Positions 2,739 through 39,755 of a stretch of DNA of 64,000 bases are shown one piece after another. How positions within the stretch are numbered: the stretch's first letter is position 1; the number at the start of each line of letters is the position of its first letter. The notes beneath the pieces were generated by a model. The model did no database searches, was not told the origin of the DNA, and saw only the letters and a list, made by a program, of their open reading frames with translations. The stretch spans positions 26,059,647-26,123,646 of the forward strand of contig NC_056547.1 of NCBI RefSeq assembly GCF_910596095.1, read 5' to 3'. The stretch is from Thunnus maccoyii. Taxonomy: Eukaryota > Chordata > Actinopteri > Scombriformes > Scombridae. The translations under genes were made by a program, and so were the position numbers.

Positions 2739-3754
2739 CTACACACTGGTTTCCTGAATTTGACTACGACGATAATCTGTCACCATTTTCTTCATGTCTG
2801 GGTATGGTTTCAGATCAGTTCTTCTGAGCATGGTTTGTTTGCCAGCCAGTGGATCATATTTGTATCTGTAAAAGAATGTTCAGTCACTTATCATCTGTGT
2901 TGACAAATCCTGAGAAGGTGACTCTGGAATTAGTGGCATCTAGTGGAACGGACTTGGCAGAAATGGAGCACAATATTCATAAGTATGTTTTAATTAATGT
3001 AGAATAACCTGAAAATAAGAATTATTGTGTTTTCGTTTCCTTAGATTGATCCTTTTATATCTACATAGGGAGCAGGTCCTCTTCCACGGAGGCCACCATG
3101 TTGCACCGCCATGTTTCTACAGTAGCCCAGAATGGACAAACCAAACACTGGCTCTAGAGAGGGCCTTTTGCATTTTTTGAGTCATCCTAGTCATCCTACA
3201 CGCTTGGAGGGTGAGGGTGAGGGGAGGGATATTTAGTTGGTTGCAATCTTCAACCTAACCGCTAGATGCCACTAAATCCTACACACTCCTCTAACAGGAA
3301 TATTGCGTCTCACTAATACATTTCACAGTGGTGCTTGAGCTGTCTGTTTTTTTTTTCTTTTTTTTTTTTATCTCAGTTTGACATGTTACATACAGTATAC
3401 AGCATTTTTATGACCATGTCACAGGTTCCCACCTCCAAGCAATATCAAAATCTCTGGATCTTTTCATATAGACCACCTTCTCTAGCGATCTGATGGGAGC
3501 AATGGCTGATAAAATGAGATTTTTTACTTATAGTACAATATGTGCTTTCTACTCTGTTACTACTCAGTTTTATTGATCTACAATAATAAATAATATAATG
3601 AATGTACTTACATTTTTAGGTGTTTTTCAATGGCCTTCCGTTCATACACTGTTCCATATTTTGTTCTCACGGGATCAACAAATATCTTCTTGGTGAGTGG
3701 ACAGAGGAGATGTTCAGGTACAAACACAGGTTGTTCTACAGGTTCCACCAATTT
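2739..3754 (-). other. Segment encoding the C-terminal U-box-like domain
   Basis: Exons 3754-3612 and 2865-2739 encode residues 988-1076. The pattern CPLTKKIFVDPVRTKYG TVYER followed by AIEKHL matches the U-box signature (CPIT-x-DPV-x-G-x-TYER-x-I-x-W). The second half, KYDPLAGKQ then L-x-PYPDMKKMV, corresponds to the usual DP-x-T and L-x-PN-x-x-L positions in degenerate form. U-boxes recruit charged E2s without zinc. Here the domain follows an E2 domain on the same chain. The stop is TAG at 2741-2739. Confidence 0.75.
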
Positions 3755-6700
3755 CTTTCAAATTGGAAGCAAAGACAGTAATCATTAACATCTCATATTA
3801 ATGTAAAAGAGTAAAAACAGTGAAATGTGATACATAATGTTAAAGGTAATATGCATGTTGTATTGTAACTTTTTAAGAAAACTAATAATACAACTAATGT
3901 GTCTCTATAACCTCTTCTTTGAAAATATGCACATACATATGAATAGGCTGGGTTAGCCTATTCATATCTATAGGACTGGCTCACAGTCTCCCTGTTCCTT
4001 ATCCATCAAGTTTTCAGCTTAGTGGTGCAGCAGGAAGTGTTTAAAATGCTCCACCTGCATTCAATCTGGATTACAATGCAGACTCATTTGTATTAAACTG
4101 CATTAGTATAAATTAGGTGTACCTAATATGCTGGCAACAACTTCCTTCATTATTATTTTAATGTTTTATTTCTTATAATTATGACTTAGTTTGTGATCAT
4201 TACAAAATAGTTATTAATTATGAGATAGTTGGTATCAATTATGCAACTCAATAGCATCTTTCTTTAGACCCCTTCTTCATCCTAAATGCCCACATCTTTG
4301 AAACACCACAACCTCAGTCTGTAACACAGGCTTCCTGTTAAAAATATGTTTCTGGCCTAAACCTGATGACATCATCAGAGTTATTTTATCAGACTCTGGA
4401 AAGCTTCACCCATAGGCACCAAATACTGCACATTACACAGCTATTCTCATTGTCCTGTTAATGTGCTGTATGCAAGCTGGTGTCTGTACTCAGCCAAAGA
4501 TTGACTGAGTGGAAAACAAAAGGTGACTTAAGATCTTAATTTAATCTCTGAGTTTTAGGTATCTAAAACTTTAGTTGCTAATATTGAAAGCTATAAACCT
4601 CATTTGATTCACCAAAGATTCAGATTCGATAAACAGATTTGATACTGGATTTGGATTTGATAAAAATTCTATTGAACCCCAACCCTACTGACAAAAACAC
4701 AACAGTTCATTTACCTTCTCCATATCATCCAGTGATTGCCCGGCAGTTTCCTCCGTGTGTTTTTTGGCTTCTTGGTCATATGTCTCACGGTTGGTCATGA
4801 ATTCCTCTGCCAAAATGCTACCAAAAAAACCCACATATTTGATTTGAATGCTTCATTCACCTAAGCACAAGTTAATAAGTTGTTTGCACAAATTCATACA
4901 GTGTGACTATATAAGAATTCAGATTTATACTGTACATACATGCTGGTCATTAGCAAAATGCCTATATTTCTCTGTCATCAGCAATGTATGAACCTTGTGA
5001 ATTTATCCAGCTTGATATGCTTGATATTAATATGATAAAAAATATGCAATATATGTTACACAGTAAATATAAACTTTCTCCATATGGTATCTGTACAGTA
5101 TGATAACAGTGAAGAGAAGTCAGAATAATCCTAACACTGGTGTGGTGGTGTGGGCTATTGCAAATGTGACATTATGTTAACATACATTGTCCAGGCATTG
5201 TCATCTGTTTCTGCCAGTTTATGGCCATAAAGTAGAGGCCTGAATTTCTCTCCTCTTGGAAATGCATGGTTTATCATAATCATGTGTGTCTTTTGTAATT
5301 AGGCTTTTAAGAAAAATAAATCATAGACATGGTAAATTGTATTAATATTCATTCCCTTTGTTGTGGACAGACCTCATGGTCTGACTGGGTGTTAAATAAA
5401 ATATCCATTAAATAAATGTGTGATGTGGCTTAAAACAGTGATGCAGCAGGTGCAGCGGCTCCTAAAAATGGTTAATTTATCAAGCATGGTCTGTACATAG
5501 ACACAGTCTTGAGAGGAAGCCTAATCAGCCTAAATAACTGAAAACGTTGGTGTATGGGTGGACTATGGCGGACTGTGAGTGTGTAGGTACTTTAATCTTA
5601 CCTATCCAATGGATCTTCCGGCTCAGGGATGATGAGCAGTCCATACACAGCATCGAAGATATCTCTCATGGTGATTTGGGCATTGTAGTTGCGGTCAAAG
5701 ATGTTGTGGCAGATGCGCCCCACACTGTTAATGTTGCAGTGGTACATCTTTATTCATATTAAGAAAATGATGAATGAAAGCTCAAACATTGTTTACAGTT
5801 ACTGAAATTGTTAAATTACTTTGTTAAAGCTCCTTTTGGAAACACTTGTATGGAATCGCTCTCAATGGGCCCCATTCACACGTGTTTTATCTTTTTTTTA
5901 TATCTTAAACTCGCTCATAAAACATGACTGAGTAGATTATAAACACTCTTCTTTACATCTGATTCGTGAAACATACACAGACTTCTGATTCGTTCTTACT
6001 TGTGAAAATTGTGATGAATCAGTATGCCAAAAATCTGGACATATTACTTGCCATGTATGTAAAAATAGTGCATATTTTCATTTTGTGTTAACCCACAAAC
6101 ATTTTGTAAATAAGAAAATAGAGAACAGTTCCAAAAAAGTTCTTAATTTGTGTGCATTCTCAAGTCAAGAGTAAACCTGTTCCTTGGTATGTTTCATGAA
6201 TGAGGTCCAATGTGTGCAACTGTTCATTTATTTGGCAGGATACACGTGTGACGAAGCGAACAAGTGGAGGCTTCACTGGGTAGTCAGGACCAAACTGGCA
6301 GAACAGCTCAAACACTCCTTTCTCATAAGGCGTGTCAGGAGGGCCCTCCATGAGAATCTTCCAGAATGCTGAAAGGTTTAAAATAAGATAATCATAAGTT
6401 TTTTCTTTTGTTTTTTGTTTTTTATTGTGATGATGTTGTTGCAGCAATTCCCTTTAACTGAGATGAATTTCTCCTGAGGGAGTCAATAAAAGTGACCTTG
6501 ACCTTGAGTCTGTACTCTTACATGTGCTCTTTATTGTATGTATTTAGAATAAAAAATCACATTTGAAATAAAGAGAAAAAAAGTCATTAGAGAACATGTT
6601 ACTTACTGAGGTCGGATTCTGATGGAAAGACCGTAAAGAAGGGATGTGGATGACAATGCAGGCTCTTCAGCTCCTCCAGGATACGTTTGTCCTTCTCCAT

Positions 6701-9700
6701 GAAACGCCCATCTTTGGCCTCCAGAATCCTCTTTTTCAGTGCACTAGTTTGAAAGATTAGTGCTTTGAAAATGTATACAAATTGTAATACTTTATATTAT
6801 AGACTTCTAAGTAGCCTACAATGTACTTATTTAGTATATTCAGGACACTTGTTAAGGCCATGGTGAAACTTTGCACAAACATGGTTCCCAGAGATTAACC
6901 CTGATGATTGGTGATGCCCTGACTTTTCCTCTAGTGCCACCATGAAGTTGGCATTTTTGGTTTTTAGTGACAGGTCTCAACAACTGTATGATGGATCACC
7001 ATTAAATTTGGTACAAGCAGTTATGTTCTCCCCAGGATGAATTGTAACAACTTTGGTGATCCCTTTTCATGTAGCACCATTATCAGGTCAAAATTTTAAT
7101 TTGTCCAATACTTTGGTTTAACAACCAAATACCTGCAAACTAATGACATTCCTATTAGTCCCAGCTGTAGTTTGTGTTTAGTGTTAATTACAAAATGCTA
7201 GCATACTGACACGAAAAACTAAAATGCTGACATTGTAAACATTATGCCTGCTAAACAACTGTATGTTAGCACTGTTATTTGTGAGCATGTTAACATGCAT
7301 TTAGCTTAAAGCACCTTTGCACCTAAATACAGCCTCTAGTAGAGGTAGTAGAGCAACTAGCATGCCTTTAGACCCTTAGGGACTTTTGGGCTTTTCAGTT
7401 TGATCTGAACCAAAATTACAATCGTGAAACCTCCCCTGGATCGCAGTCCAGACCAAACAGCCGAACATTTTCCAGATATTTTAAGAGGATGAGAGAGAGA
7501 GGAGAGCAATGCCACCTGAAGATAAAGTAACACCATAATAATATTATTATAGTGGCAACGAAATGAATCTGTTCATTCATTTTTCTCCATTAATTCAAAC
7601 AGCGATAGAAGTCTACCTGCTGTGTTGATGACATGCCAACATCAGACGCATGTCTGTCTACATGTATAGGGAGATGCAGCCCACGTAGGTGATGATGACA
7701 GGATGTAAGTATGTCATGTTAAGTTCTTTAGTACACTTGCATAATTGCAATATGAAACCAAAACTAATTGGATCAAATCTATACAATGTAACAAAAACAT
7801 GAACCTTGGTTCAGACCTTGGTTTGCACTTTCAGGTGTGAAAAGGGCCTTAGTCTTATGATTATTGTCAGCAAATTCCCAAAACTACAAAACTACAAATG
7901 TGTTAGTCCATCCCTCAATAATTTCTGAGTTTCCTACAGTGTCTCTGGTACTCAACCTAAATTCATACTGACATGTAAATCTTAAAAACGGCTCAAAATA
8001 TTTCATTTCATCTTTAAAAAGTACTTGGTCATTTCCTGAAACAACTGGTAACTGTAGTTATTAGCAATCTTTTCTCAAACAGGAGAAACAGGATTTGGGA
8101 TTAGGTCAAAATAAACTACAGTCTATGTGTTGATGGTAATGAAGGAACAAGTCACCCAGTGCAACAGTGTGGCTCATTGATGTGTTTTTTTAATAGATTT
8201 TTTGTGTGTGTTTCTGTTTTTTTTAGTGTCAGAGGGTGTGTAAATGTTGACAAGACACTAAATCATCTTGACATGCATCAGAAAAAAATATTAAATATTT
8301 TATAAATATATTTTTATATGCTTGTTTTCCATGTTTGATCTTCCTACAAAATAGCACATTGATGCAATGCTGTTAAAAACCAACTTGTTAATTCCTAAAG
8401 TCAAACTCTTGCACCTGAATGCAGCATTAGGATCATTGCTATTAAGCAATATTGTGTAATGCTGGAACTGCCTGATCTTCACCAAAATCTGATCCTTTAG
8501 CTAATCTTTGTCAAGTTATAGCCAAATCTTTTTCAGTTAACTTTACTAAGAGACAGACATAGCTGAAACTAAAATGTGTGATCTCTTGAAACAATAAAAC
8601 TAAATAACACACAACCTCTCTGCTTGACCTTTGTCCTCTCATCCTCGGTGCTTGACAAATCATTTGAAAGCATAATTATGGTCCAATAAATTAATCTTCA
8701 GCAGATGTTGCATATTCCAAATAGAAGCTATGGAAGAAGCTTATTCTGTCACTTACCAGTGTGTCACTGTCACTTTGCTGTTTATCTGGCTTGGTAAGGC
8801 AGCCTCAGGGAATTCATCATATCCATGACTGGCAAAGAACCCAGATAAAAAACTCTGAAAAATAACAAGGGGAAATAAACCAGCATATCATCATAATATG
8901 CAAATGATGTCTGTTTTAAACTTCTGTGATGTAGTCTCATTTTCAGAGCACTTTAAACAGAATTGTAGACAGTAATCAGTGTAACCTTAGTGATGGAGGA
9001 GGGGTCAGCTTTGTTTTTTGGTTTCCTCATCTCCAAAGAAAGAACAGTCTCAATCTCAAAAAGCTTGAGACCATCTTTGCTTGTCATTGGTTTAAAACAG
9101 CAACCCCCTGAAAGCAATGCAGATTCAAAAAAGAGGAGTTAATTTACCACCAAACTGTTATCTTGACATTTTTACAGCTAAGAGGTGCTATCAGGTACAG
9201 CATGAGATTAACTTTTGAACCCTTTTGCAGCACTTATTGATTGACACATGCCATCTGGGGGCAACATCAGTCCTGCATACAGGAATCTCTTTGGAAAATC
9301 CCCATTCCATTAGTTGGTTTTCAAAGCATTATTGGTTGCATTGGTTGCAAAAACTGTAGACTGTTTCACTACAAGATCTACTTAAATCTGCCTTAAAGAA
9401 AAATGTTTTACAAACCTTTTCAGGGGTTGGTTCAAATTAAAAACTCAAAATAAAAGAAAAGAAACTATTTTATTTCATCCTGTACCTGTTGCATTGCTGA
9501 TTCCATGCAGAATATTGTTCCCCACTTCTCCCAGAAGAATGGAATCCACTATGATGTCAGATTTTATCAAGTTGACTGCAACTGTAGCTGCCTTGTTTGA
9601 GGATCTATGCACAAATATTCAGATATGTTCTCAAAAAACATCAGATAATAATAAACATGTGATTTACATTTGTATGCTTTATATTAAAGAGAAATGTTGC

Positions 9701-12700
9701 ATGATGATAACAAACTAAATAATCTTCCTCTGTGTTTTTCACAGATGAACAACAGACAGCAGTTATACAGTATAGAGGCAGTTATTTAACCCACGTCAGA
9801 ACATCTGGCAGAATAAAGAGAGATCATGACTGACCAAAACTTATATGATCAGTGAATAAGCTTATGATAAACCCCCGTCTAAAAACGCTGTCTTCCAGTA
9901 TCCCATTATACATTCATGACCAGTCAACACATCCATATAGTATCACTGACCAATCTTGATTGAGCTCTGGATTGACTTGGGTTCAACTACAACCAAGAAT
10001 TGCTGTCTGTACCTTTCCCATTTTGTGAAATTTCATGTTTTCTGAAATATTTGTTGCGTTTTGCCACCATACCCACTCCTCCCTAAACACATGCAGGCAC
10101 GCATGCACGCACGCGCACACACACACACACACAAACACATACACATTCACCATACAAGGTGCTGGCCTGCTCATTGGGGAAAAACATGAAGTGTACATTT
10201 ATAAATCACACATACATTTGAAAATCTGATTAATATTTAGAGTGAATGATTTTAGTCACCAGACTATTATAGTCACGTATCTATAGATAGTATACTAGCA
10301 TAGAGAAGGATATTTACCCATAATCATTTCCATCTGTGAGACACAGAATGCGAAGTCTACAGTCTGGAAACTTCTTCTTTACTTTGTCCAACTCCAGCAT
10401 ACCATGCTGTAGTGCATCATACAGCCTTGTCTGTCCAGTTGCCTTAAGAGTGTGCACATGTTCCTAGAAAAGTGAAAATAGACACAGCTGTGTCTATTTA
10501 AGAGACTATTGTACCATGGCTCAAGATCCCATGTTATATTCCACACAGAAAGAAAGACCATATCCTAACCCTCAATTGGTATTTAAGACTAAGATGTAAA
10601 GTGCAGAATTGAACAAATACATGGTTTGATATACTTCATGTTTATAAGATATGCTTTAAAGATATGTGATGTATTTACCTTGAACTTTTCAAGCGTTTCT
10701 GTAAATGTGTGGAGTGTTGTCACTGTAGAGTCAAACTTCACAAGTCCAATGACATGATGGAAATCATAAGCCATGCTCCGTGTTGCAAAGTTGTCAAAAA
10801 GCTCTTTTACAGCATGGATTCTCTGTATTTCCACACTTCCATAGCATTTCTCAGCCATGGATGAGCTCGTATCGATGAGCACCTAATTAAATCAAAGGTT
10901 AGAAATCACTGAGATGCATTTTTTTTCACACCCTAAAACAAAACTTAAGTTGAAGCATATACTTCATGGGGATCTTGACTGGACACTTGTTTTGTAATTT
11001 TGTTGCACAAGATAGAAAAAGTCCCAAATGCGCCTGTGCTTGACTAAAGGTTTGATCACATTATCATTGTGTCACTATACTGCCCATGCTATATAGTTGT
11101 TTATATGCCTAAAAGAGCTTGTAGAGTCTCTGGATTAATTTATAATTGCTATAAAATAATGTTAGCACTATTGGTATAGACATTTGAAATGTGTTTCACG
11201 TGTTTTTCCCCTTGTGCACCATATTGAACTGCAGAGGCTATGCACTGGGTCCATAGACACCAATGGCTTTTTGCCTTTTTTTTCGTTGTTGTTAATCATC
11301 AATTAAAGAGACCAGTTTCCACCCACGGACCATCTGTCTCACCTGAGGTCTAAAGATCTGTACACATAATGGTCAGATAAAGGAATCACATGTATATGCC
11401 CCTCTTGAGTTTACATGCCTACATAATATATCAACAGAACAAGCTAATTCAAGGGTTAACACGTAAAAGTGCAATTCCGCAAGTGGCCACTGGGAAAAAT
11501 TGGCAGCAAGGCTGAGTGGCAGCATCGTATCCTATTATTATACATCCATGGATTATAAATGCTGACTTTTCAACTTTGATTTACTGGTTTGATTTATTTT
11601 GTGTGGATCTGTGGTAAAAAAAAAAAAAAAGACTTTTTACCGAGGGGACTGAACTCATAGACTGTGGGACAAAAATGTTGCATTTAATTGCTCTTTAAGC
11701 TGTTGACAAGGTCTGTCTTCAATATCTGTTCAAATTAACTTTCTGATTTAACACAGTTAGTTTTGGTTGTTTGTTTTTCTATGCTACAAATAAATTCAAA
11801 AATAAATTCAAAATAATGCAATTTCCATCCTTTTTGAAATATAATGTAAAATAAGGTATAGCAGGTCTAAACAGATCTAGAATGAGGAAATCTAACAGTC
11901 CCCCTACCCCTGTCTCCATTAAAATAATTGAAGTAGTAAATGATCTACAATACCAGAATAGCTTCTTTTGGAGTCCTGGTTGTGAGAAAGGATTGGTCAT
12001 CCCTATGGTCACCAGTTCTGCATGAAAGGTAGAAAATTTCATGTTTTGTTAAGTGGTAAGATAGATGTGTGATATTAAGATATGTATGTAAAAGCAAATA
12101 AGATTAGACATTCTGGTGACTGTTAATCTTCATACCATGGAGTCATACTGCATATTATTGCAATATGTGTCCACACATTCTTAATGTAAAAGTCACATTT
12201 TTATAATCAAGATATTTACTTTATAGTTTAGTCGTCACTTTTACTCAGGAAAAAGGAGAAATTCATCCACTTTGAATGAATGTACTTTCACAATATCATA
12301 GTTGTGGGTTTTAAACTACAAATGCCAATAAACATTTTTAAAGTGATTATATGTGGATTTTATGTGTACTACAAAAAAAATTGAGATACTTACTGTGCTG
12401 CCAGTACATCCACATCCACATCTTTGACTTTACCAGCCAGACAATCATGCACCACAATTATTGCAGGTGATGCCTTATTTTTTCCTAGATAAACACCAAG
12501 GTTGTCTGCAAACGACAAAACAACATGTCTCTTATATGTAAGGGATAATAGGTTTCACATATGTGGCCAAGAGTGGAATTTTTCCCCCCAAGCCTGGGAC
12601 AAACATTCCCACTCACCATAGTTTGTCAAAATAATCTAACTATACAAGCATAGCTGGAATCAGATGAGACAAGGAACCACATACAAAAAGACATTTGGCC

Positions 12701-15700
12701 ACAAATACACAGGCACATGATCCACCCTAAGAAGTGTGTCCCTAAATATAATAAAATAATTGAAAAAACGGCCAATGGAACTACAGTAATATAGTAATCA
12801 TGACAGACATAGAGCACAAATGAAAAAATTAGCTCCTATGAAGTTGCAACTATGAACAGCTGTGAATGTGACATGATTTAGTCTGATAACCATGCAGGAA
12901 TAAAATTTCCTGATTGTGGCTAAAGGGGCTATTCTTTGAATTCATTCTAAACACCAGAGTTTGGAAATCACACTCCAGAATCTCTTGTGGTCTCTTGATT
13001 TTAACATAGAAAATTGTCTATATACTGTAAATCATTTCTATCTCTTTCTCCATGAGACGCCTCTTCACATGTCGACATCTAAGGTGCCTGGTTCAAACTG
13101 AATGTCATTGTAGGAAATTCATATGCTTTATATTTGAATGCGAATCTCTGACATTTCCTGTAATTTTGACACACTGTCAGCTGTATTGTGATGAACCTTG
13201 TGCTGATGTATTGACTGCAATCGCAAATAGTGTAGCAGCATGATTTTCAAATTTCAATTAAAATATCATATGTAGTACCCAGACTCCAACTCCGAAACTG
13301 TGAAAAACAAGGCCCTGGTGTGTAATATATTTGATTATCTATGTGTGGTTTGTAGAGTTTATGTGTGGAGTTTAACAAACAAGCATGTTGCATTTCATTT
13401 CGCTCCCAAAGTAGATGTGAACAACAAAGTTCATTCATCCCCAATTAACATGTTGCTCTCTGGGACTTAATGGACCACCAGGTATATGTAGACACTGGCT
13501 TGCACCACAGGCAATTAAGTGAAGATTGCCTCCCATTAAATTATGCACAGGAGCACATCTGTGGGAAAACATGGAGCCTATGTCTCTTTCCTCATTCTCT
13601 GGATGCTTATTATCTTATGAAGGAGTTAGGTCATGTGTAGCCCATACTGCACTGCGTGTCCTATACTGTTACCCTACATGTAGGCTAAGATCCTGTTATC
13701 CTTGTATCATGTATAATTATGAAATTATATGTTCTATTATTTTGCTCCTAGTATCACTAACATAAAATGCTGTGTATTCATTTTACTAGGAACAGCTTTC
13801 TGATATATGCAGTACCTGCGCTCAAGAAAACAAGACACGCGTCGTCTAATCCTAGCTCCTTCAAACGCAGTGGTGGAGTCACACTGAGTAGAGGGAAAGC
13901 TTCCAGTTCCTCTGCCATGCTTCCAAAAGTCTTCTCAGTATTTATGTGAAAGCTGTAATTGAATTACACAAATTGTTAGATAGATTACTGTGTTTTAAAT
14001 GCTTTGAGAACTGGGTCATCTCAAGAAAACGTGAGCAAAACAGGTTTCTTATCTCATTACTCATAAATCTCTATTAAACATGTTGAGTTCAGTTTGTAAA
14101 GTAGTACAGCATACCACACTGCCCACACTAAGAATCAGTTGCAAAAAATGAGACGGATCACTTTGGATAACCAGTTACTATATTCACCATTAGCAAACAT
14201 GTTAATATTGTTACATTGGTCACTGATGTAATCATAAAATACTGTATGTGCACCATATAGTACATAGAAATCCACATGACAAAGCTTTGTATACAAAGGT
14301 ATGTTACGTTATTATAACTAATTTTAACATAATTTATGAATAAGAAATTTTATACATACTTCTGACCAGTCACGATGGCATGATAAATCCAAAGATGGTA
14401 TGTTCTGACTGAAGGATGAACACTGAGCAAAATCTTCTCAATGTCAGTGGCTCTCTTGAGTGACGTTTCTCGCAAAACCTCTTCAGTACAGTTTGGAATC
14501 TTCTCTTCATCTTTACAAAGATTTAGAAAAAAAGTTAAAACATAATGTCCATAATAACACATCTAATTACTTCCTGACAAATTACAGATGTGGGAAGAAA
14601 AATATTTAGAATTGAGATGAGATGTGATCATTGAGTCCAACCTTGGCTGTAGACCTTTACACTCATGAATAATATTAATATTTTTTCAGTATTAAACACT
14701 CTGACATACACTTCAGGAAACAACTAGTTAACATTTTGGTGGTAGACCTCCAGGCGATCCTTCAAATGCTGTTTCAATCACAGGAATTGCTTTGATGGGG
14801 TGAGGTTGTGTTGTTTCCACCCACGTTTAAGCAAAATTTCACAACAATCTTCCCATAAATAGAAAATCATTCTGTACATGGTTTGCAAAATGTGTACATG
14901 TTATCAAGTTTGCTTATATACTTTTGATCCATTACATATTTTTAAAGATTATTTTTACCTTTGATTTTCTGCAGCACATGCGCTCTTTCTAGGGTACCTG
15001 GAACTCCAGGTACAGTGACTGGTTCACAGAAACGCTTGTTGTCTTCAGACATCAGAGAAACTGGTGCATAGTCCTCATGTTCTGCGCTCTCTTTCTGTCA
15101 AAAATAATAGAAGGGAGTAATACAAGGGACACTATTCAGTAACACTCTGCTGGAAGTGTGTGATTTGTTGTCGTCATTACTCGTAACAGTGCTACAGGTC
15201 ATAATGATATTTTACGTTCAGGAATACTGCTTCTTGCCTCTTCTTCCCTAACACATAGTAATCGTAAAATTTCCAACAGTATTGAAACTCTGTAGTAAAG
15301 ATGAAGGTGCATTTTGAAATTATATGTGTTATGTCTGTGACCATTTGTAATTGAACACTGATGGCTCTTATTTAATTGTAACTGGTTATTTGAAGATATT
15401 TTGTCACCAGTGCAATTCTGAAAAAGCACTTAAAAAGATGGGTAATATAAAGGGCTGGCATCATACAGTTTCTAGATGACAACATCCATGACAACAACTA
15501 AACTCAATGCCATTTTAAAGGCTCTGCCTTACAGAAATAATCCATAAAACTATTTAAAAAATGATTAATGTAAGCTGACCTCAATCAATATTATGATATT
15601 AACACTGAATCAAATGGTTTAACTTGAAACAAGCAAATTACATGTTCTTAATATTTGTTTAATAGAAGTAAGGACTAAATATATGAAATGAGAACTTGAT

Positions 15701-18700
15701 ATCAAACATGTTTGATGCTGATGGGACTTCATCCAGACACAACAGTGCACCTGTTCTAAGCTGACCTTCTCACAACAAGGTGGCCCTGCAAAATGCGTAT
15801 TCTGACAAGATCAAAACTGATGACTTTTTACTTTCATGTCTCATGTAAAGTCTTCAGTGATCATATTTAAATAAAGTCTAAAGTTCTTATTTTAGCCATT
15901 TTAGCCCAAATCTCAAGTCTACAGCTCTCATAGGCTATGTGAAGACAATGCATCCCTTCTATCCATTGTATTGATGGAAAGAGTCTGATTGTAATATATT
16001 TTAATGGTGGAAAGTAAGTAAGTATATTTACTCAAGTACAGTGCTTTAGTACAAAACTGAGTTATGTGCATTTGGTAATTATTTCCATTTTATACCACTT
16101 TCATACCTCCACTCCACTTTATAGAGAAATATTGTACTTTTAACTCCACTACATTTATCTGAGTTCAGGTGTTGGAACGTTGCAGCAAAGAGGGCTGAGG
16201 ATAGTTTATCAAGTATATTGTGTCTAAAGGGAAAATGATCTTATCTAAAAGAGAAAATGTAATTTACTAAATGTACTGTGTATTCATGAAGTTCAAATGA
16301 AGGACCCTGACCAGAATAAATATAGACAATTATAGAAAATGGATTGATGGGTATATATATATGAGTGTTTATACTGTATGTGCTTTGCTTGAATAACCCA
16401 TTGTGATGAAGCTTGCAGCCTCTTGGACACATTATAAACTGAAGTACAATATACTGAAACATGATGAAATGTTTTCTTAACCTTATGTAGCCAAATTTAA
16501 GCAACTTCATTGAAACTTTGCAGCTGAGAAACCTTGACAGAGCACCATGATTAGACCTAAAAGGATTTATAATGTATGTTAAATAGAAGGTAAGTAGATT
16601 ATAAAGTGATATGATTAACTTTATAAAGATTTATCCTAACCATATCATCCAGGTTGCAGCGAGGCTTAAATACATGAATCATTGGAGGAAGGCAGTTATT
16701 ATCTTGTTAAGGTAAATCAAATACCCTGGATACCTCAACACCCGTGTGAATTTAGATTCTGCCTCAAAACAAATTTGGAAATACCTTTGCCTCTGCCATG
16801 AGATATGCCCAGCAGTATGTGGAATTCTCGAAGACATCAAGGTCCTCAATGATCTTTTCCCCTCGTTTTGATCCAAGCTTTGGCAAAAGCTCTCTAAAGA
16901 GTGTGTACAAGCCTTCAACCACTGCAATCTACAGGAAAAGAAAAAAAAGTTACTGTAGGAAAAAAAATCACATTCTTTCAAGGCTGCTGATGAAACAAAA
17001 TTCATGCTGCTTCAGTTTAAAAACAATGCAGTGTAAAATGTATCTATATGCATTTGTAAAATAGTACCTTAAAACACTCATTTCCAAAAAGTCAATGCAA
17101 CAGGTAATAAAGTTAATATAACAACATTTTTTATCATTTATTTACCTTTTGAGTCCTGGATAGGAATTCATTCTTCAAGAGTAACTGATGCAAACTCTGG
17201 GCCAGAGGGTTACATCCGCTTAGTTTTCGTATGTAGCCAATCAAATTCGTGAACGAAAGCCCCGAAGGTTTTTGTTTCTAGAGGAGAAAAATAGAATCAA
17301 AGTCCAAAATTTATCTAAAGTACAGTTGTGACATGATTATTTTTAACAGCTCCTGACAGAAAGGACCTCTGAGATGTTGTAAATAGCTTTCTATTATTAA
17401 GTTTTCTATTTCTATACATGTTTGTATATGTTGTACCTTGTTACACAAGGTACACAATGGATACTTTGGAGTGGTTGGAAGGCACCTTCAACAGAAGCTA
17501 GCTCCCCCGTCTTTGCAAAAAGAATTAAATTGATCCTTCTTTCTAACTGCCAGTAATTAAAACAATTATATATTCACCAAAATTCTGGAATATTCCTCTA
17601 GGGCGATAAAAGGGTAAGCAATTAAAAAAACTGGCTAATCCAGAAGAAATCATATATATTTATATTTATTTATCAAATATTAGATAAATAAGTGAGGGGT
17701 AACATAATAATGAAAAAATAAACATGAAACCCTGCTTACGATGACATAAAGTGACGACAAGAAGACACTGATTCCTTTGGGAGTTTGTTGCACGGAGGGC
17801 ACAACATCATTACTGAAGAATTCGTTGGTGTTTGGAATCTCCTCAGCAAATGTGGACAGTGAGAAGTGAACTGTTGACTCCTCTGAGATTCCACAACTTT
17901 CCAATGTGTTGCCACTGCTATCTCCACCTCTGAAAATATAATTAATAAGCACATGAACAAATAGAATAAGATGTTACTGTTGATGATTGGTGTCAAAAGC
18001 CATACTATACATGGATTACAATGATTCTGAATTACTTGTAATGAAGAACATGTGCTGGGATTCCACTTTCATTTGCAAGCTTGTTCTTCAAATTAGCTAT
18101 TGTGTCAGTTGTCAAGTTCACCTTCACCTCGAAGTCTCCCTGTATCAAATATCAAATATAGGAGAGAGTAAAGTTATTAGTTATTAGTAAAGTTGTTAGA
18201 GTGCAGCATCCATCTAGAGAGGTGCTGCTGATATCAGCGGGAGAAATGAACTATAAATTAATGACAAAGCCTTTTGAATTTGTAAAAGCTCTGATTCCCA
18301 TGTCTGGTTGGTTGGATGCTGTAGTATTTAGAAAGATTCAGATAAAAAATATTTTGCTTATGAGAAGTTAGAAATATTTACACACAATGGCCATAACATA
18401 AACTCTAACGTAAACCGATAACTATATTAACCAGAAGACTCCTGTGCTGCTGTGTTGAGAAAAAAGACGAATTAGATCAGTGGTTCTCAATGTGGGGTAT
18501 GAATGTAATAAAACATCTAAAAGCAAAAATCATATCAGATGGGGGAACCTAGGACAAAGTCTTATCAAATGGGCTCCATGGTCTTATTAGTGTCAGTTTA
18601 GGGGTCCTTGACATGAAAAAGTTTGAGAACCACTGAATTAGATTACAGTACCTTGAACATGACATGACACCGCACTGTATCCACACTGTAGGTTTCAGTA

Positions 18701-20895
18701 ACCCGTCCAACAAGTCTTGTTGCATTTTGAGGAGCTGTAATCAGGTTCTCCTTTGGTGTAAATATGGCATAGATTACATCTCCACTCTTAATATGTCTGT
18801 CCTGTAAGGACCCTGCAGACAAAAAAACAAAATCAAAACAACCACTTTACATATTTTGTTGTGTCACAGGAAAAAAAAATTCCAACAATAATAGCTGCTG
18901 TAAGGTTGTTGAGATTCTATTGAAGTCACAGGGCAGATTTGTGTTGTGTTTGTTGTTTGGTAGGCCTAATATATACAGTATAATGAAGAAAAAAACAGGT
19001 AGTGCTGTTAAAATGATTTGTTTTAGGTGTTGGGGATTAAATTACCACTTCCCATCATGGTTTATCATGGTTTGTGTTTATTTAAAAGAAACATTCCCAA
19101 CATGAGGACATGAGGAAGATGGAAGAAATGGTTCTGTTGGATTTGTTTGCCTATTTGGACTATCTGCTCTTCTTTTACCACTAATGCCAGTAAAGTCCCT
19201 TTAATTCAATGTGTCAATAAAATGATGTCCTGTTGCATTTGGTTTTGAACAGCAATACCAAAGCTGCAGGAACACGACAGGAGCTCATTTTCCACCTGAG
19301 GTTGTCCCTCCTGGGTTCCTGCACTACTACAATTAAAAGGCAGCAAGAGGCAAGTGAACAAACAAACTAGTGCATTGTGGTGGTTTATGAGGCTGTTGAC
19401 TTCCTCTCTGCACTTCCCCTTACATGAATCCCTTTTGCCATATTCTGACCAAACTGCATCACAAAGGTTATATACAAAGGTTCTATTAAATAACAACATT
19501 CATGTACTCTTTTAAAACAGATGAAGGCAGATGACAAGCTGCATCTACATGTAATTCACATTAATTTGCTATATTGTTACTTGTATAACTTTCATTATGC
19601 ATACTTGAAGGCATACTTTTCTTACACTTCAAATGCTTTATCATTTGTATAAAGGCCTGATATTCCTTCACTGAACATTACACTAAAAATGCCCTGTCAT
19701 TATTTATTTTAAACCCCTGGCACTGAGTGAGCTTACATGTGTTGAAGAAGGGATCATCAGTCAAGGGCATCCCGTCCACTGTGTAGAGACAGACACCTTT
19801 GGACGCACCAATACTTTCAAGGTGACAGATCCTCAACATCAGGTCTTCAACTGTGTTTTGTGCTGGATCCATATCTACAAGTTCAAATCAACAGAAGTAC
19901 AAAGGTATTTGAGTGTCATCTATTGGCTCTGTCACTCCTGACCTGACCTCATGGTGTCCCTGGTGTGTGCTTTTAGTGCTTGACTTGACTTACATTCGGT
20001 CTTCAACCCAACCTGCTTCATGTTATTTATTTTTGTATAAAGGCAGTAGGTGTATTTCAGGCATTTCCTTGCTTAGAAGTCAGCAGCAACAAGAGGTACT
20101 TTTCCAAGGTATTTCACTACCAACATTTTTTCTCTGCTCTGTCAAAAACTTAATGATCAAAAAAGGGTATAAATTATATGAACTTCTTACCTTTGATGTG
20201 TTTCGGTTCAGGACATTTGGGGTACGTGTACTGCAGAGAGAATGACTGTGTTGACTTTTGCACAGCCATTGCAGCTGGGTGTCCTGGAGCTCTGAGTCTT
20301 CCAATGGTGATTTTCATTTGAGAAAAGCGATTTTTTTCCACTTGACTGAGTCCTGTTTGGAAATATGTTGGTTTATCTGAATTTCAAATTTTAAAACGGC
20401 AATAAACTTATATTAAACTTTAATGAGTTCATACTGTGGAAATTTAACTCAAGATTTGTGTTTTCTATTTGGATTATTATATAAATCATTACTGATTCGA
20501 ACTAAGAAATTCATGATGAAAACATTTGTTAAAAGGTCATGTTATTAGGCCACTAGACCCAAGTCATGTTATTCACACCAGAGAAGACAGAACAACTAAT
20601 GTAATGTGAAAATCAGTGGTGGCTACTCAGGATTATTCAAAGTGGTATCATGTAACAAAAATATAAACCTGAATATGATTCTATTCTTACATGAAATATT
20701 TTTCATGGAAGCTACATGGAAAACAGGAAATGCATTCACAAATCGTTAACATTCAGTAACCTTACCAAGGTTGTTTAAGTCCTCATCTGTTACACCATCA
20801 ATGAAATCTCTTTCATCTTTCACTCCTAACTGGAGAAACTTGTTGTAGTAAGACTGGAGTCTGTGCTTCTCAAGTAGGTTGAAAATCGCCTCCAT
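2739..20895 (-). CDS. SAM-UBL-UBL-VWA-UBC(E2)-U-box protein, 1076 aa, 24 coding exons
   Basis: Predicted one-chain ubiquitin-transfer protein. Coding exons in transcript order: 20895-20766, 20352-20191, 19874-19737, 18812-18652, 18139-18036, 17929-17740, 17277-17146, 16928-16785, 15094-14959, 14510-14360, 13952-13816, 12505-12394, 12017-11954, 10882-10679, 10463-10318, 9604-9486, 9107-8986, 8854-8757, 6743-6607, 6368-6244, 5747-5602, 4817-4715, 3754-3612, 2865-2739. All introns are GT-AG, every phase joins, and the 3231 nt sum is exactly 1077 codons ending in TAG, which argues against a pseudogene. Domains: SAM about 1-63; ubiquitin-like 80-163 and 191-262; unassigned helical region 296-585; VWA 586-770 with MIDAS D591-x-S-x-S, T667 and D699; UBC 834-985 with catalytic Cys917; U-box 1000-1066. 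The start is the ATG that opens the SAM exon; a noncoding exon ending at 21003 probably precedes it. Domain calls rest on motif recognition by eye. I cannot give a gene name. Confidence 0.88.
3085..3300. repeat. Dispersed fish repeat in an intron
   Basis: Recognisable by GAGGCCACCATGTTGCACCG at its left part and GCTAGATGCCACTAAATCCT at its right. I recall this as a dispersed repeat of percomorph genomes. It lies in the last intron (2866-3611) of the E2/U-box gene. Borders are approximate. Confidence 0.5.
4715..6743 (-). other. Segment encoding the E2 ubiquitin-conjugating (UBC) domain
   Basis: Exons 6743-6607, 6368-6244, 5747-5602 and 4817-4715. The first helix is KDKRILEELKSLH. The central sheet has FWKILMEGPPDTPYEKGVF, then YPVKPPLVRFVTR. 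The active-site stretch is MYHCNINSVGRICHNIF. Cys917 aligns with the E2 catalytic cysteine (usual GxICLDIL), and Asn909 with the conserved Asn of HPN. The C-terminal part, LIIPEPEDPLDSILAEEF, strongly resembles the PEPDDPLDxxVAEQY stretch of canonical E2s. The HPN proline is replaced by Cys908, and the conserved Trp of the post-active-site loop is Tyr. A catalytically competent E2 is likely but untested. Confidence 0.85.
6850..7380. repeat. Dispersed fish repeat, longest copy in the window
   Basis: It shares ordered landmarks with the copies at 48480-48625 and 60825-61115: TCCTCTAGTGCCACCA, CAGGATGAAT, ATACTTTGGTTTA, AAATACCTGCAAAC, GTGAGCATGTTAACATGC and a terminal GCATG-rich part. No coding frame. 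It occupies the large intron 6744-8756 of the E2/U-box gene. Confidence 0.6.
7375..7855. mobile_element. Possible hAT-like MITE
   Basis: The left end (GGGCTTTTCAGTTTGATC, then TGAACCAAA) and the complement of the right end (GGCCCTTTTCACACCTGAAA, then TCTGAACCAAGG) are imperfect inverted repeats. No clean target duplication was found, so this is tentative. Confidence 0.35.
8986..10882 (-). other. Segment encoding the von Willebrand A domain with intact MIDAS
   Basis: Exons 10882-10679, 10463-10318, 9604-9486 and 9107-8986. VLIDTSSSM gives the D-x-S-x-S metal site (Asp591, Ser593, Ser595). TGQTRLYDAL supplies the MIDAS threonine (Thr667), and LCLTDGND supplies the third-loop Asp699. All five metal-coordinating positions of a classical MIDAS are therefore present, so divalent-cation-dependent ligand binding is possible. 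There is no signal peptide or membrane segment anywhere in the protein, so this is an intracellular VWA domain, as in known nuclear and cytosolic VWA proteins, not a secreted matrix type. Confidence 0.85.
10095..10139. repeat. (CA)n-type microsatellite
   Basis: GCACGC/CACACA run in an intron of the E2/U-box gene. Frames that cross it on either strand are repeat artefacts. Confidence 0.9.
11455..11555. repeat. Partial copy of the MITE family found intact at 63.0-63.5 kb
   Basis: GGCTGAGTGGCAG, then TTATTATACATCCATGG, match the right end of the 63042-63525 element. The left terminus was not found, so this is a fragment inside an intron. Confidence 0.55.
11954..17277 (-). other. Segment encoding an unassigned region, residues 296-587
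   Basis: These are seven exons between the second ubiquitin-like domain and the VWA domain. The sequence is mostly amphipathic-helix-like up to about residue 485. A more strand-rich stretch follows around 528-566, with NLGVYLGKNK, PAIIVVHDCL and a run of Asp-Val repeats. I recognise no named domain. Exon phases and open frames are intact throughout (exons 17277-17146, 16928-16785, 15094-14959, 14510-14360, 13952-13816, 12505-12394, 12017-11954), so the region is real coding sequence rather than misjoined introns. The last exon supplies the AIL that opens the first VWA strand. Confidence 0.7.
16009..16175. repeat. Dispersed fish repeat (short copy)
   Basis: TTTACTCAAGTACAGTGCTT at the left and AACTCCACTACATTTATCTG at the right match the family also present at 56070-56885. 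It is intronic. Confidence 0.55.
17740..20895 (-). other. Segment encoding SAM and two ubiquitin-like domains
   Basis: These are the first six coding exons of the 1076-aa gene. Residues 1-63 have the SAM pattern: an N-terminal helix with LLEKHRLQSYYNKF, then LGV, DFIDGVTDEDLNNLGL, and a basic C-terminal helix. Residues about 80-163 look ubiquitin-like, ending in SLQDRHIKSGDVIYAI, which resembles the last strand region of ubiquitin. Residues 191-262 are the clearer ubiquitin-like fold: TTDTIANLKNKLANESGIP parallels the ubiquitin helix, and TLESCGISEESTVHFSLS parallels its final strand. Neither domain ends in a processable Gly-Gly before a new domain, so they probably act as fixed interaction modules rather than conjugated tags (inference). 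In this family of folds SAM domains commonly mediate homo- or hetero-oligomerisation. Confidence 0.75.
18478..18635. mobile_element. 158-bp hAT-type MITE with perfect 8-bp target duplication
   Basis: The terminal inverted repeats are CAGTGGTTCTCAA at the left and TTGAGAACCACTG at the right. They are flanked by an exact 8-bp duplication, AATTAGAT, at 18470-18477 and 18636-18643. CAGTGG-type ends with 8-bp duplications are characteristic of hAT elements. The insertion lies 8 bp inside the intron that follows the exon 18812-18652. Confidence 0.9.
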
Positions 20896-21002: not shown

Positions 21003-21080
21003 CTTGATGTGCTCAAGATGAAGCGCAACAGTTGTGCTGCTTTGGTGTCTGTGTCTAGCGTTATTAACTACAGTATGTGC
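21003..21080 (-). other. Probable 5'UTR exon of the SAM-VWA-UBC-U-box gene
   Basis: A good donor (CAAG|GTAAAT on the minus strand) lies at 21003/21002, about 110 bp upstream of the acceptor of the ATG exon. The frame is phase-compatible and open back to an ATG at 21248, so an N-terminally extended protein of about 82 extra residues cannot be excluded. That extension has no domain character, and the IRF-like motif would fall inside it, so I favour a noncoding exon. The transcription start is not resolved. Confidence 0.4.
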
Positions 21081-21089
21081 CTGTTTCAC

Positions 21090-21102
21090 GAGAAACGAAA
21101 CC
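21090..21102 (+). promoter_or_regulatory. IRF-type motif near the promoter of the E2/U-box gene
   Basis: GAGAAACGAAACC contains the AANNGAAA core bound by interferon regulatory factors and agrees at 11 of 13 positions with the IRF-1 type consensus SAAAAGYGAAACC. The spacing is one base short of the longer ISRE consensus GAAANNGAAA. It lies about 90 bp upstream of the presumed first donor of the minus-strand gene. The match is by eye; function is inferred. Confidence 0.35.
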
Positions 21103-21550
21103 AAACAGTACTGGGAGTAAGCTGAACTCCACACTGACTTCAGGGGATTCGGGGAGGAGGACTCAAACATGCAATGGAAAAACAACACAACCAGTTGTTT
21201 TTTTGGTTGGAATAGAGACTTGCAGACTCTTTGTACCTCGTGACGCATGATAGGCTATATTGTGATCAGTTAGATTAAATATTACAGATATAAATATCAG
21301 ACAATTATGCCTGAGCGTGAATAACCTTTTTTTCACCTTTGTTTTCAGCTTAAAATTGTCTAAATCGAGGGAGACTTGAATGCAGCGATTCAGACGTTAA
21401 AGGCCCAGACGCACTGAGTGTCTGACGTGAGCGTTTTGAAGTACACTCGCGCGTCAAAGTGCCTTTACGCCCAAACTCTCCATGTTTCGATTTTGGATCG
21501 GCAGATGAGGACTCAGCGACCAAAGCTGTTTTCACTTTTCTCTCTCTGAT

Positions 21551-21551
<1 letters not shown>

Positions 21552-21626
<75 letters not shown>
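21552..21626. repeat. (AG)n microsatellite, about 75 bp
   Basis: A near-perfect GA run about 0.65 kb upstream of the ATG exon of the minus-strand gene. The open frame across it encodes only Arg-Glu repeats and is an artefact. Confidence 0.95.
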
Positions 21627-28601: not shown

Positions 28602-28703
28602 CGGCTGGAGCGTGTGGAGTAGTGTGACTCTTCATGCTTTCTGGAGCTAACTGGCTTATTGTTTCTTTGTTAACCCTTTTTGACAGATGCCTCATCCTCT
28701 ACT

Positions 28704-29567
28704 ATGTTTCCTCTGGAAGAGAAGATTACAAACAGCACTTGCTCGGGTTACAAGGATCAGCATCCGCACACCATCCTTTACAACATCTTGAGCTGCAGGG
28801 ACAGTGGCTCCCTCAAACACTTAAACACCACAATGCACAGTTGTCACTGTGAGCAGAGGAGGGCAGTTTACCTGAAGGACCCCCAGACTACCTGCCAAGT
28901 TGCCTCCAGCGTGCTGGTAAAAACTATTTGCTTCATGAGAAGTCTACCATCTTTTAGTCAGCTTCCATCAGGAGATCAGTCATCCTTGTTAAGACACTGC
29001 TGGGTTCCTCTTTTTGTTCTGGGGCTTGCCCAAGAAAAGATGGTGTTTGAAGTGACAGATGTGCCAAATTCAAGTATTCTTCGACAGATTCTGCTTGGAG
29101 CAGGACTCACTGAAAAGGAGGCTGAACAACCAACTCTTGCTGGAGTCCACAATTTGAGAACTTGCTTGCATCACCTGTGGAATCTGGATCTCAGTCCAAA
29201 GGAATACGCTTACCTGAAGGGTGCTATGTTGTTTAACCCAGGTAAAACATTTTGAATTTGAATACCCATGCTTATTAATGTATTGGACATGAGCTTAAAC
29301 AGAACCTTTTCTTCATCTACTACAGCTGTCAAAGGTTTGAGTGCCTTGTTGTTCATTGAAGGCCTCCAACAGGAGGCTCAGAGAGCTCTCCAAGAAGTCA
29401 TCCACCATCTGCACCCAGAGGACAGCGGTCGCCTCAGCCACATCCTCCTAGCAGCCTCCACCATTCAGACTGTGAGCCACAACTTGGTCACAGAGCTCTT
29501 CTTCAAGCCAGTTATTGGCAACACAAATATGTTACATTTGTTAACAGAGATGTTATTTTTACAATAA
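28704..29567 (+). CDS. nr0b2: Nuclear receptor NR0B2 (small heterodimer partner, SHP), 259 aa
   Basis: Exons 28704-29241 and 29326-29567, joined in phase (CCA G|CT), 780 nt with TAA stop. SHP is an orphan receptor without a DNA-binding domain that represses LRH-1, HNF4A and other receptors and mediates bile-acid feedback. The whole protein is ligand-binding-domain-like. ILYNIL at residues 24-29 is an LxxLL-like box. LPSFSQLPSGDQ, then LLRHCWVPLFVLGLAQ, is the family signature region, and LSPKEYAYLKGAMLFNP is highly conserved. The C-terminus, ELFFKPVIGNTNM then LLTEMLFL, is the helix 12 region. Length (mammalian SHP 257) and the single intron after LFNP fit the family. The start is the first ATG in frame; an open frame without ATG runs 24 nt further upstream. 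Confidence 0.95.
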
Positions 29568-35100: not shown

Positions 35101-36837
35101 TGTACCTTTTATTTTTTAGATAGTTATTGATCATGGTAACTGTGGTTGGTAAAGTCATATAGCTCCAGCTATCAAGCAACAGCCACCACTAGTTTGTCCT
35201 CCATGACTGCTGTCTCCACTTGTTGTCACCACCACAGAAGGCTCAATTGATTGGACAATGGAAAAAAATGCAAATGACGTTGGCCACTTTTCTGTTCTGA
35301 GTTGAAGTTTTTTCAACTTGAGGCGTTCAGCGCGCTCCTGCAAAAATGCGAGGCACATAGAGCGGCTCAGTGATGCAAAAGCAGCGAGCAAAAAGCTTCA
35401 CTCTCATTAAAAACAATTTAAAAAGCTGCCCTAGGCTGCTAAAAGGGGCTCTGTCTGATCGGGGCCTAAGCCTATCACCACCAGGTAAATCTCTGTATTT
35501 CACAGTATACAGGAGTTTCTAAATCTGGTGTCTGTGGTGACATTCCCGTACACGTAGTGATGTGACCAACAATGATTGGTTTACAGCCGGCTAACTTCCA
35601 GTGTAACTCTCCGCTAACATAACGGATAAAATTATGTAATCATGCGGCTCTTTTAGACGTTCTAAATGTTATCAGACCAAATGGATCAAATTCTGATAGT
35701 GAAATGAGTCATTTCGCGGGGGTTGTGACACTCAAAACAATTTATCAACCATTTCACAGCCAGAACAGGAGTGACGGGGACTGACTCACGCACATACTCA
35801 TAGAACTGGAGTTACATCCTTGTAACTACTATTTACTCTCACTGCCAAAGGGGGGAGACAAAAGTTCTGCACTGCAGGTTTAAGACGTGAAAAAAATAAC
35901 AAAACTTACTGTTGTTGCTGAATGAGAAGGAATCGCTGTCCCTCATCGTCTCATTCCCGCTGTCTGACAGCGTCCTCTCCGTCCTGGGGGTGCGTGGCCT
36001 CTTCTTTGTACTCTTACGTGTGCTGATGCGGATGATGCCACGCACCAGCCGACACTCGGCTTCCTGCTCATCCATTTTGTGCTCCTCTGCCAGTGAGTTG
36101 ATGAGCTGGTTGATGGCCTTGCTCTTCTTCAGAAACACAGAGTCTGAGGTGCACCTGGCCAACTCTTCAATCTGATATTCAGAGTAGAGCTCGAGCAGCT
36201 TCTTAGTAATCAGAGAGTCCACATTCTCCTCGCCGTCCTCCCAGTCGTCAAACCTCATAGACTCATGCAGGGACAGATGGCTGGGCTGCATTTGACCACC
36301 GTGCAGAGGCACATATGGAGATTTGCTTTCAACATCCAAATACTCTCTTGGACTGTCCACTTTGACTCCAGCGATGCGGACATCCCCTAGCCAGTCTGTG
36401 CTGTCCTCTTCTTTGTTGTCTCCTGGGTTCACAGCTCGGAGGCTCAGCTTCTCTGGTTCATCTGGGGAGCTCTCGTTTGGCGCCAGGCAGGGAGCGAGGA
36501 CTGAAGGCTGGCAGACCCTGTAGAGGCCACAGGTCAGCACGCTGCAGATAAAGGTCCGACAGCTCCTTGGAGAAGCGCAGGGATTGCAGGTTTGTGATGC
36601 AGAGGGAGGGTCAGCTGAGCCAGGAATGAAGCCAATGGTCTCAGACTCCTTCCCATTTGCATCTTTCAGGTGAGCTTTGTGGACTGTTTTTGGCTCTGGG
36701 GTGTGTGGCCAGTCTTCAACTGGGTCCACACAGCGCTCCTCATACGATGACCTCTGGCTGCTGCTCCGGCTGGGTCCATACCTGTTGTTGCCAGGCCCTG
36801 AGCTGTGTCTCAGACTGCCAGTGCTGCCGGCAGACAT
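32131..36837 (-). CDS. kdf1: Keratinocyte differentiation factor 1, 369 aa
   Basis: Coding exons 36837-35910, 34731-34645 and 32225-32131 (1110 nt, TGA stop) join in phase as NNN-DYK and NNG-GHT. KDF1 controls the switch from proliferation to differentiation in epidermis; loss causes epidermal and craniofacial defects in mice. Recognition rests on residues 208-276: LITKKLLELYSEYQIEELA, RCTSDSVFLKK, and MDEQEAECRLVRGIIRISTR, which match the conserved KDF1 core. The ending (PTSYLPSHTETNSSGFPL) parallels the mammalian C-terminus. Other features are an ETIGFIPGSADP motif near 66-76 and a Cys-rich patch at 84-117. It is somewhat shorter than the human protein (398). An acceptor at 36857 just upstream of the ATG shows a preceding noncoding exon. 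The neighbours nr0b2 and zdhhc18 match human 1p36.11. Confidence 0.93.
34904..35466. mobile_element. 563-bp Harbinger-like MITE in kdf1 intron
   Basis: Inverted ends: CTCCGATCAGACAGAACAC at the left; the right end complements to GGCCCCGATCAGACAGAGCC. They are flanked by TAA at 34901-34903 and 35467-35469, a 3-bp duplication typical of PIF/Harbinger elements. No transposase frame, so it is non-autonomous. Confidence 0.75.
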
Positions 36838-37900: not shown

Positions 37901-39755
37901 CGTGTACCTGGGCGTCAAGGTGGAGGAGGCGTACCAGGTGGACTGGACGTCCGGTGATGACGTGCAAAAATAAAACGCAGCTTACCACTGTGTTTCTCTC
38001 AGAATGACCTGTGTGGAATAACATTACAATACAGTGATAATAACACACCATAAAGGTATTTAAATCACGTAGCAATTAGTCAAGACGGAAACCATACATT
38101 TTCATAGGCTACTGAAATCAAATACAACATTTTTAGCTCCAAAAAGCCCAATCACTGTTTTGATGGACTGATACGTCACAAAAAAACAACAACAAAAAGA
38201 CAAAAAACCCCAAAACAAAACAGGTTAATTAATCATAAATAGCAAAAGAGATGCAAGCAGCTGATTTTAAGGTAAAATAGACGCAATTCATCCCAAAAAT
38301 CTCAGACTTTGCTTGTATTTCCTACTTTGAATGTGTAAACTTGGATTCTTAAAACAGCGATACAATATTAATAACTTTATTTATACAGCACCTTTAATAC
38401 AAACATGGAGCCCAAAGTGCTTCACACAGCAGGATTAAAACAACACAGACAAATAAATAAAGTAAATAAATAAAATAGCAAAATAGACAAAATTTTAAAA
38501 GACTAAACTTAAAAGACAACAATAAAACAATAAAGTGTTGAGAGTAGATAAATAAAAGTCAATAAAATAAAAATAATAAACACCAGGGATAAAATTATAT
38601 AAAACCAATGATTGAAACTTATAAACTAAAGCTAAAGCTAAAGCTATAACATTACTCCAAATCAAAATTGAAAACCAGATTAAAACATAGGTCTTTAATG
38701 TACTTTTAAACACAGAGAGAGCACAGAAGACTCTCACCGGTACTTTTATGGGACACATAAGGGACATTTAATAGAGAAGTGGTGATCTGGCTGGAACATA
38801 AAATGAAAGAAGATCTCTGATGATGAGGAGGGGCAAGGTTATCTAAAGCTTCATAAACAAGCGGAAGGACATAAGTGCCAGAGCAGTGCCTTAAGCAGTG
38901 TGGTGATGTGATCCATCTTTGTTTTAAATAATTTATTGATGGACTTAAATATAAATTATTTCCGGCCATGTTGTTTGGTAATGATGTTAGCTTGACAACC
39001 TGCCTCAAATTTACCGGAAGTTGCCACTTGGTACTTAACAGTTTGTAGATGTTTGACATTTATCGAGAAAAATATACTAATAGAAGTACGATGAAGTATT
39101 CCTATACATTATGTGGCCGTTCACTTATGATGAGTGCCATCACCATCGTACATATAATAAGTAACATTTTAACGAATCGTTTATTTCGAAAGAACAACCG
39201 GAAATCCTTGTTGTGTTTCTGTGTAGTTTGACAGCAGCCGGTTTACCTGGACGGACGGCTCGGTCTGTGGCAACGGAGCTTAACAACACTAGTCACGAAT
39301 GTGTCAAGACTCCTGGTAGGAGAGCAATATGCATTAAAAATGACAAAGTTTTAGGGCTTCTTTTCATTCATGCATATAAGTAAAGTGGAGTAAAGCACAA
39401 AGGTTAGCTGAAATGTGCAACTCAAGCAAGCTAAGAAGCTATCAGTGGTAACGGTGCTTTGGTTTTTACTGGTGTTAAATAGTCCGCAGCTGGCTGAGCT
39501 AAATCTTTCTGGAGACTGAAAGAGGAATAAATGAAGAGGCATGGAAATTAACGGGGATGTAATTTCCAATACGGAGTCTTTGGGTTATTTACAGCTGGAT
39601 AGTCGTAATAGAGGATTAGCTTGTTTTCTCCACGGAATGACGACATCTGCGGCGTCCAGCTGCCTCAAACACGGGTGTCGGTGATGCTGTCGGTCGCTGG
39701 CCAGATGCCCGGTTGTCCGAATTGGGACAGAGCAACCAAAACTACATTATAAATC
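37901..39755. other. kdf1-zdhhc18 head-to-head intergenic region and zdhhc18 5'UTR
   Basis: The two genes diverge from here. The left part holds a dispersed repeat (38365-38900). The more GC-rich part from about 39220, with CGG/CCG-rich phrases, is the likely zdhhc18 promoter and 5'UTR. No TATA box was recognised. Confidence 0.45.
38365..38900. repeat. Dispersed fish repeat between kdf1 and zdhhc18
   Basis: ACTTTATTTATACAGCACCT, then GCCCAAAGTGCTTCACA, and later GGGGCAAGGTTATCTAAAGC, are typical of a widespread fish family. It is AT-rich, and frames here are artefacts. Borders are approximate. Confidence 0.5.

Follow-up and report, generated by a model that had tools for sequence, protein, structure and literature searches.

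A tuna gene predicted to encode a multidomain E2/E3 hybrid with an E2 domain and a U-box on one polypeptide

Proteins that unite a ubiquitin-conjugating (E2) domain with the function of a ubiquitin ligase (E3) appear to be few. BIRC6 and UBE2O are the human E2/E3 hybrids named in the accessible part of one source, and each is a single chain that has an E2 domain and also functions as an E3 (PMC13061254). The contact between a separate E2 and a U-box ligase has been described for CHIP, where a proline and residues of the loop after the DP motif of the U-box meet the S-P-A motif of the E2; according to the available portion of that report, an E2 needs S-P-A to work with CHIP, but S-P-A by itself is not enough (PMC2396629). 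Here, a gene predicted to carry both parts is described from 64,000 nucleotides (nt) of Thunnus maccoyii DNA (NCBI RefSeq assembly GCF_910596095.1, contig NC_056547.1, positions 26,059,647 to 26,123,646 of the forward strand), referred to below as the window and numbered from its first letter. With moderate confidence, the gene is read as real and as encoding a single polypeptide, a probably active multidomain E2/E3 hybrid whose E2 and U-box are more likely to form a dedicated pair than to bind each other in the manner of CHIP.

The coding sequence (CDS), rebuilt from the raw window, runs on the minus strand from 20895 to 2739 and consists of 24 coding exons separated by 23 introns, all of them GT-AG. 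Including the stop codon (2739-2741), it comprises 3231 nt, or 1077 codons, and encodes 1076 residues from an ATG at 20893-20895. The 3228 nt before the stop contain no internal stop codon or frameshift, and the intron phases are consistent at all 23 junctions. This independent rebuild bears out an earlier note on the same DNA, made from the sequence alone, which had listed 24 exons with consistent phases and 1077 codons. The coding frame holds one stop codon, the terminal one, whereas the remaining frames hold 52 and 74, and when pieces of matching length from this region were joined at random 2000 times, the mean was 64 stops and the minimum 33. GC content is 44.1% in the CDS compared with 34.2% in the introns. 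Additionally, matches to domain profiles span exon junctions in register, across exons 13-17 for VWA, 19-22 for UQ_con, and 23-24 for the U-box.

Splice sites were scored with an approximate matrix and ranked against all 3769 GT and 4051 AG dinucleotides of the window's minus strand. The 23 donors have a median percentile of 94.7 and the 23 acceptors one of 89.3. Four of the 46 sites fell below the 60th percentile, namely the acceptors of introns 9 (46.6) and 18 (59.6) and both the donor (52.6) and the acceptor (16.4) of intron 20. The last of these introns splits the E2 fold and is the weakest junction by ordinary splice rules. Its donor reads GTATCCTG, and GTATCCT is seen only twice among the 1051 GT dinucleotides of the gene span. 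Just 5' of its acceptor lies a branch-like sequence that matches 7 of 8 positions of what we take to be the U12 consensus; an equally good match is found for 8 of the 1132 AG dinucleotides in the gene span, and scores in the remaining introns, 22 in number, range from 3 to 6. By these signals, intron 20 is a probable minor-class (U12) GT-AG intron, which largely removes the doubt over the weakest junction. The possibility that intron 20 is a wrong junction was considered and rejected because its sites fit the U12 class and the joined E2 aligns there without a gap to UBE2E2.

Domains were called with Pfam profiles on the whole protein and on isolated regions, and with sequence searches of the PDB; the profile searches of isolated regions were run at E-values up to 10, although HMMER filters drop most matches above about 0.1. 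On the whole protein, Pfam gives the order ubiquitin fold, VWA, E2, and U-box. The E2 matches UQ_con at residues 837-973 (7e-36) over profile positions 1-139 of 140, which makes it a complete UBC fold by sequence. The U-box sits 25 residues behind the E2, at residues 999-1069, and matches its profile over positions 1-70 of 73 (1.6e-12; 47.8 bits against a cut-off of 21.4). The E2 and the U-box that the earlier note had placed on one polypeptide are thus both detected on the same open reading frame. The VWA domain also lies where it had been claimed, with matches to VWA_2 at 586-700 (7e-13) and to VWA at 586-749 (2.1e-8). The residues of what we take to be its metal-ion-dependent adhesion site (MIDAS) motif are in place (D591-x-S593-x-S595, T667, and D699). 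In the PDB, the VWA region matches only Rpn10 (E 0.001), apart from a designed ankyrin repeat that is a spurious hit, and NCBIfam returns four distant names there, all below their cut-offs. Two further Pfam matches are below cut-off, zf-Nse (3.2e-4), which overlies the U-box, and VWA_CoxE (0.067).

The N-terminal part of the protein agrees with the earlier proposal in some respects and not in others. Two ubiquitin-like folds had been suggested, of which the second, at residues 197-257, matches the Pfam ubiquitin family (1.9e-7 in the whole protein, 3.6e-8 when isolated), whereas the first, at about 98-161, gave no match to a ubiquitin profile as an isolated region at E up to 10. The fold at 197-257 is a weak match to single ubiquitin chains in the PDB (about 20 bits, E about 0.005), and its much lower E-values against polyubiquitin chains arise from the repeats of those chains. 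It closes with ...STVHFSL (250-256) without the terminal Gly-Gly of a conjugatable modifier, and the chain runs on. Because the Gly-Gly is missing and further protein follows, this fold is read as a built-in domain rather than as a modifier. The proposed SAM domain is matched by SAM_TNK at residues 6-52, which reaches 26.8 bits with the region isolated (cut-off 25) but 20.8 bits (4e-4) in the whole protein, and a PDB search of the region gave nothing better than E 0.026 (Caskin-1). Residues 257-567 match nothing in the PDB at E up to 1 or in Pfam at E up to 10.

The E2 domain aligns without a gap to UBE2E2, with 57 of 147 positions identical, and UBE2E1/2/3 and UBE2D (UbcH5) are its best PDB matches among the 60 of 324 listed. 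The catalytic residues Cys917, Asn909 (within H-C-N, a motif common to this E2 and UBE2E2), and Asp949 are kept, as is Leu951. Retention of the catalytic Cys and the neighbouring Asn suggests that the E2 is probably active. The ligase-binding face is different, with Val894 at the position of Phe62 and N926-A927-Q928 in loop 7 at the position of S-P-A, the motif of the E2s that pair with CHIP (UbcH5, Ubc13, and UBE2E). Unlike UBE2E1/2/3 and UBE2D, the tuna E2 therefore has no S-P-A, has Phe62 replaced, and is set within a long protein. The absence of S-P-A and of Phe62 argues against a CHIP-type contact between the U-box and its own E2. The earlier suggestion that the U-box recruits the neighbouring E2 in cis is weakened accordingly, since the residues that the CHIP U-box needs on its E2 are changed.

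Of all PDB chains, the bacterial effector LubX matches the U-box best (5.3e-13, with two U-boxes counted). Among eukaryotic proteins UBE4B matches best (3.7e-6), and CHIP/STUB1 reaches 0.0011 at best. H1032 of the U-box aligns with a His of UBE4B, which we take to be equivalent to His260 of CHIP. Relative to UBE4B and LubX, the printed alignments show two extra residues in the segment that follows the DP motif. On the E2 side, the pair clearly departs from the ordinary E2/U-box contact, and the U-box side may depart from it too. Such an altered contact may reflect either the co-divergence of a private pair or decay.

A mechanism can be proposed in which the E2 is charged by the ubiquitin-activating enzyme (E1), while the VWA domain, through metal-dependent binding, and the SAM domain, through association with itself or with partners, would hold a substrate or build an oligomer. 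The U-box, placed shortly behind the E2, would then serve as the ligase module for an E2~ubiquitin, and the two could pair within one chain or between the chains of an oligomer. Because the E2, and perhaps the U-box as well, departs from the usual contact, a dedicated pair is considered likelier than binding in the ordinary CHIP manner. A bolder form of this proposal is put forward tentatively, as a possibility in which we place limited confidence. The E2 and the U-box would have diverged together to form a private pair, each exclusive to the other, with VWA and SAM delivering the substrate and building oligomers; the protein would need only E1 and ubiquitin, would exchange no parts with other E2s or E3s, and might be absent from humans.

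Several observations weigh against the dedicated pair and the single hybrid protein. For the U-box, the case for co-divergence is slight, since its extra length is only one residue relative to CHIP and PUB12 (by aligned lengths) and to the Pfam consensus. The E2 has Asn919 at the position that we take to be Asp87 of UbcH5 and Glu840 at the position of Lys8, and the changes at its interface fit a loss of function equally well. Furthermore, the preference of CHIP is the rule of one U-box, the SAM domain is under its cut-off in the whole-protein scan, and the single-chain gene is predicted from the genomic DNA of one species. It is conceivable, though on the whole unlikely, that one protein is made whose U-box recruits a free E2 of the UbcH5 or UBE2E type, leaving the fused E2 to serve priming, chain extension, or self-modification. 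Such a division of labour would agree with the lack, in the fused E2, of S-P-A and Phe62, both of which the CHIP U-box contacts, and with a U-box that matches its profile over nearly the full length and exceeds CHIP by only one residue over the aligned part. However, with a tether of 25 residues, the U-box and the fused E2 would probably meet in cis even if they bound each other weakly, and the two residues by which the loop after the DP motif exceeds that of UBE4B and LubX might disturb binding of a normal E2 as well. Asn919, N-A-Q, and Val894 could also be signs of a decaying or inactive gene, either a recent pseudogene or one that supplies a pseudo-E2 and a pseudo-U-box as a scaffold. We regard this as very improbable, given 3228 nt free of internal stops and frameshifts, a splice site at each junction, the conserved catalytic Cys, Asn, and Asp of the E2, and the MIDAS residues of the VWA domain.

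It is improbable, though less so than decay, that the locus holds two genes or transcripts in the same orientation, one for SAM-Ubl-VWA (exons 1-18) and one for an E2-U-box protein of 245 residues that would begin with Met832, encoded in exon 19. Met832 (MEKDKRILEEL; 6698-6700, minus strand) sits where free E2s begin, and exon 18, if left unspliced, meets a stop codon immediately past its donor. Intron 18, which lies between the VWA and E2 parts, is also longer, at 2013 nt, than any other coding intron, has a weak acceptor (the 59.6 percentile given above), and contains two ATTAAA. Against this, its donor has the highest score of the 23, it has no AATAAA, and its CpG observed/expected ratio is 0.16, within the 0.03-0.40 measured for the nine introns longer than 600 nt, against 0.74 for the 900 nt upstream of exon 1. 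The phases agree across exons 18 and 19, and the base at -3 of the Met832 codon is T. On these genomic signals, one transcript is favoured. Even under the two-transcript model, the E2 and the U-box share one chain, since both are encoded in exons 19-24. Met832 may be an internal start, or it may mark where a once separate E2 gene began before fusion.

The features of the locus are collected in Table 1. When the candidate upstream exon is joined, the first ATG stands in the context AAGATGG, and the frame of this exon is open up to 21254; it may be 5' untranslated region or encode a short N-terminal extension. A perfect (GA)37 repeat lies at 21553-21626, some 660 nt upstream of coding exon 1. 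For the neighbouring genes, seven open stretches picked by eye were searched against Pfam. An nr0b2-like ligand-binding domain is formed by two open stretches in the same frame (28674-29252 and 29262-29564, plus strand) with stop codons between them, and the second stretch matches the domain at only 0.0074, below cut-off. A short intron between the two is the simple reading. The stretches 39753-40037 and 49041-49457 match no Pfam family above cut-off. We take three of the neighbours to be nr0b2, kdf1, and zdhhc18, which are presumably adjacent on human 1p36.11, and we know of no such E2/U-box gene in that human neighbourhood.

Table 1. Coordinates of the coding exons, selected splice features, and neighbouring matches in the window
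Feature	Position	Strand	Content or evidence
Exon 1	20766..20895	-	aa 1-43: start codon; larger part of the SAM region, weakly supported (aa 6-52)
Exons 2-6	17740..20352	-	aa 44-295: end of SAM, stretch with the unsupported first Ubl (~98-161), ubiquitin fold aa 197-257
Exons 7-12	12394..17277	-	aa 296-565: middle region, no Pfam or PDB sequence match
Exons 13-17	8986..12017	-	aa 566-784: VWA domain aa 586-749
Exon 18	8757..8854	-	aa 785-816: VWA-to-E2 connection; donor CTG/GTAAGT
Exons 19-22	4715..6743	-	aa 817-987: E2 (UBC) domain aa 837-973
Intron 20	5748..6243	-	U12-type signals; donor GTATCCTG
Exons 23-24	2739..3754	-	aa 988-1076: U-box aa 999-1069 and stop codon
Candidate upstream exon	21003..21254	-	Ends in donor AAG/GTAAAT, 107 nt before exon 1
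Nuclear-receptor ligand-binding domain	28707-29252	+	Pfam 2.6e-12
DUF4656	35842-36834	-	Pfam 6.7e-56
DHHC palmitoyltransferase pieces	42675-42947, 43065-43304	+	Pfam 5.7e-8, 8.6e-15

In titles and the beginnings of abstracts, no protein uniting SAM, VWA, UBC, and U-box was found; subscription papers and gene databases lay outside that search. Whole-protein scans of two contig collections, one of viral contigs and one of genome contigs, which together cover viral and prokaryotic sequence, gave 7 and 46 pattern matches, none of which was confirmed, a result that says little for a vertebrate gene. The gene is regarded as encoding a probable E2/E3 hybrid that is uncharacterised rather than proven to be new, and public fish annotations may well already list it under a name that reveals little. 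Several described proteins resemble it in part. UBE4B and CHIP share the U-box, but neither a TPR nor a Ufd2 core is among the Pfam matches of the tuna protein. The title of PDB entry 8v0d names an engineered UbcH5B-RING fusion with its parts in that order. The fungal clade 6A PARPs, which have a C-terminal UBC domain, are likewise large proteins carrying an E2 domain with its active-site Cys, but they have a PARP catalytic domain where the tuna protein has VWA and a U-box, as far as the available part of their description extends (PMC2964712). A compact hybrid whose plain E2 fold is separated from its U-box by 25 residues would allow one to ask whether fusion frees the contact surface between them to change, a question that is hard to study in separable E2/E3 pairs. 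If active as proposed, the protein would be a ready-made ligase module that depends on E1 only. To our knowledge, U-box, SAM, and VWA domains are all absent from BIRC6 and UBE2O, and the tuna protein differs from both as a chain of 1076 residues with a recognisable U-box.

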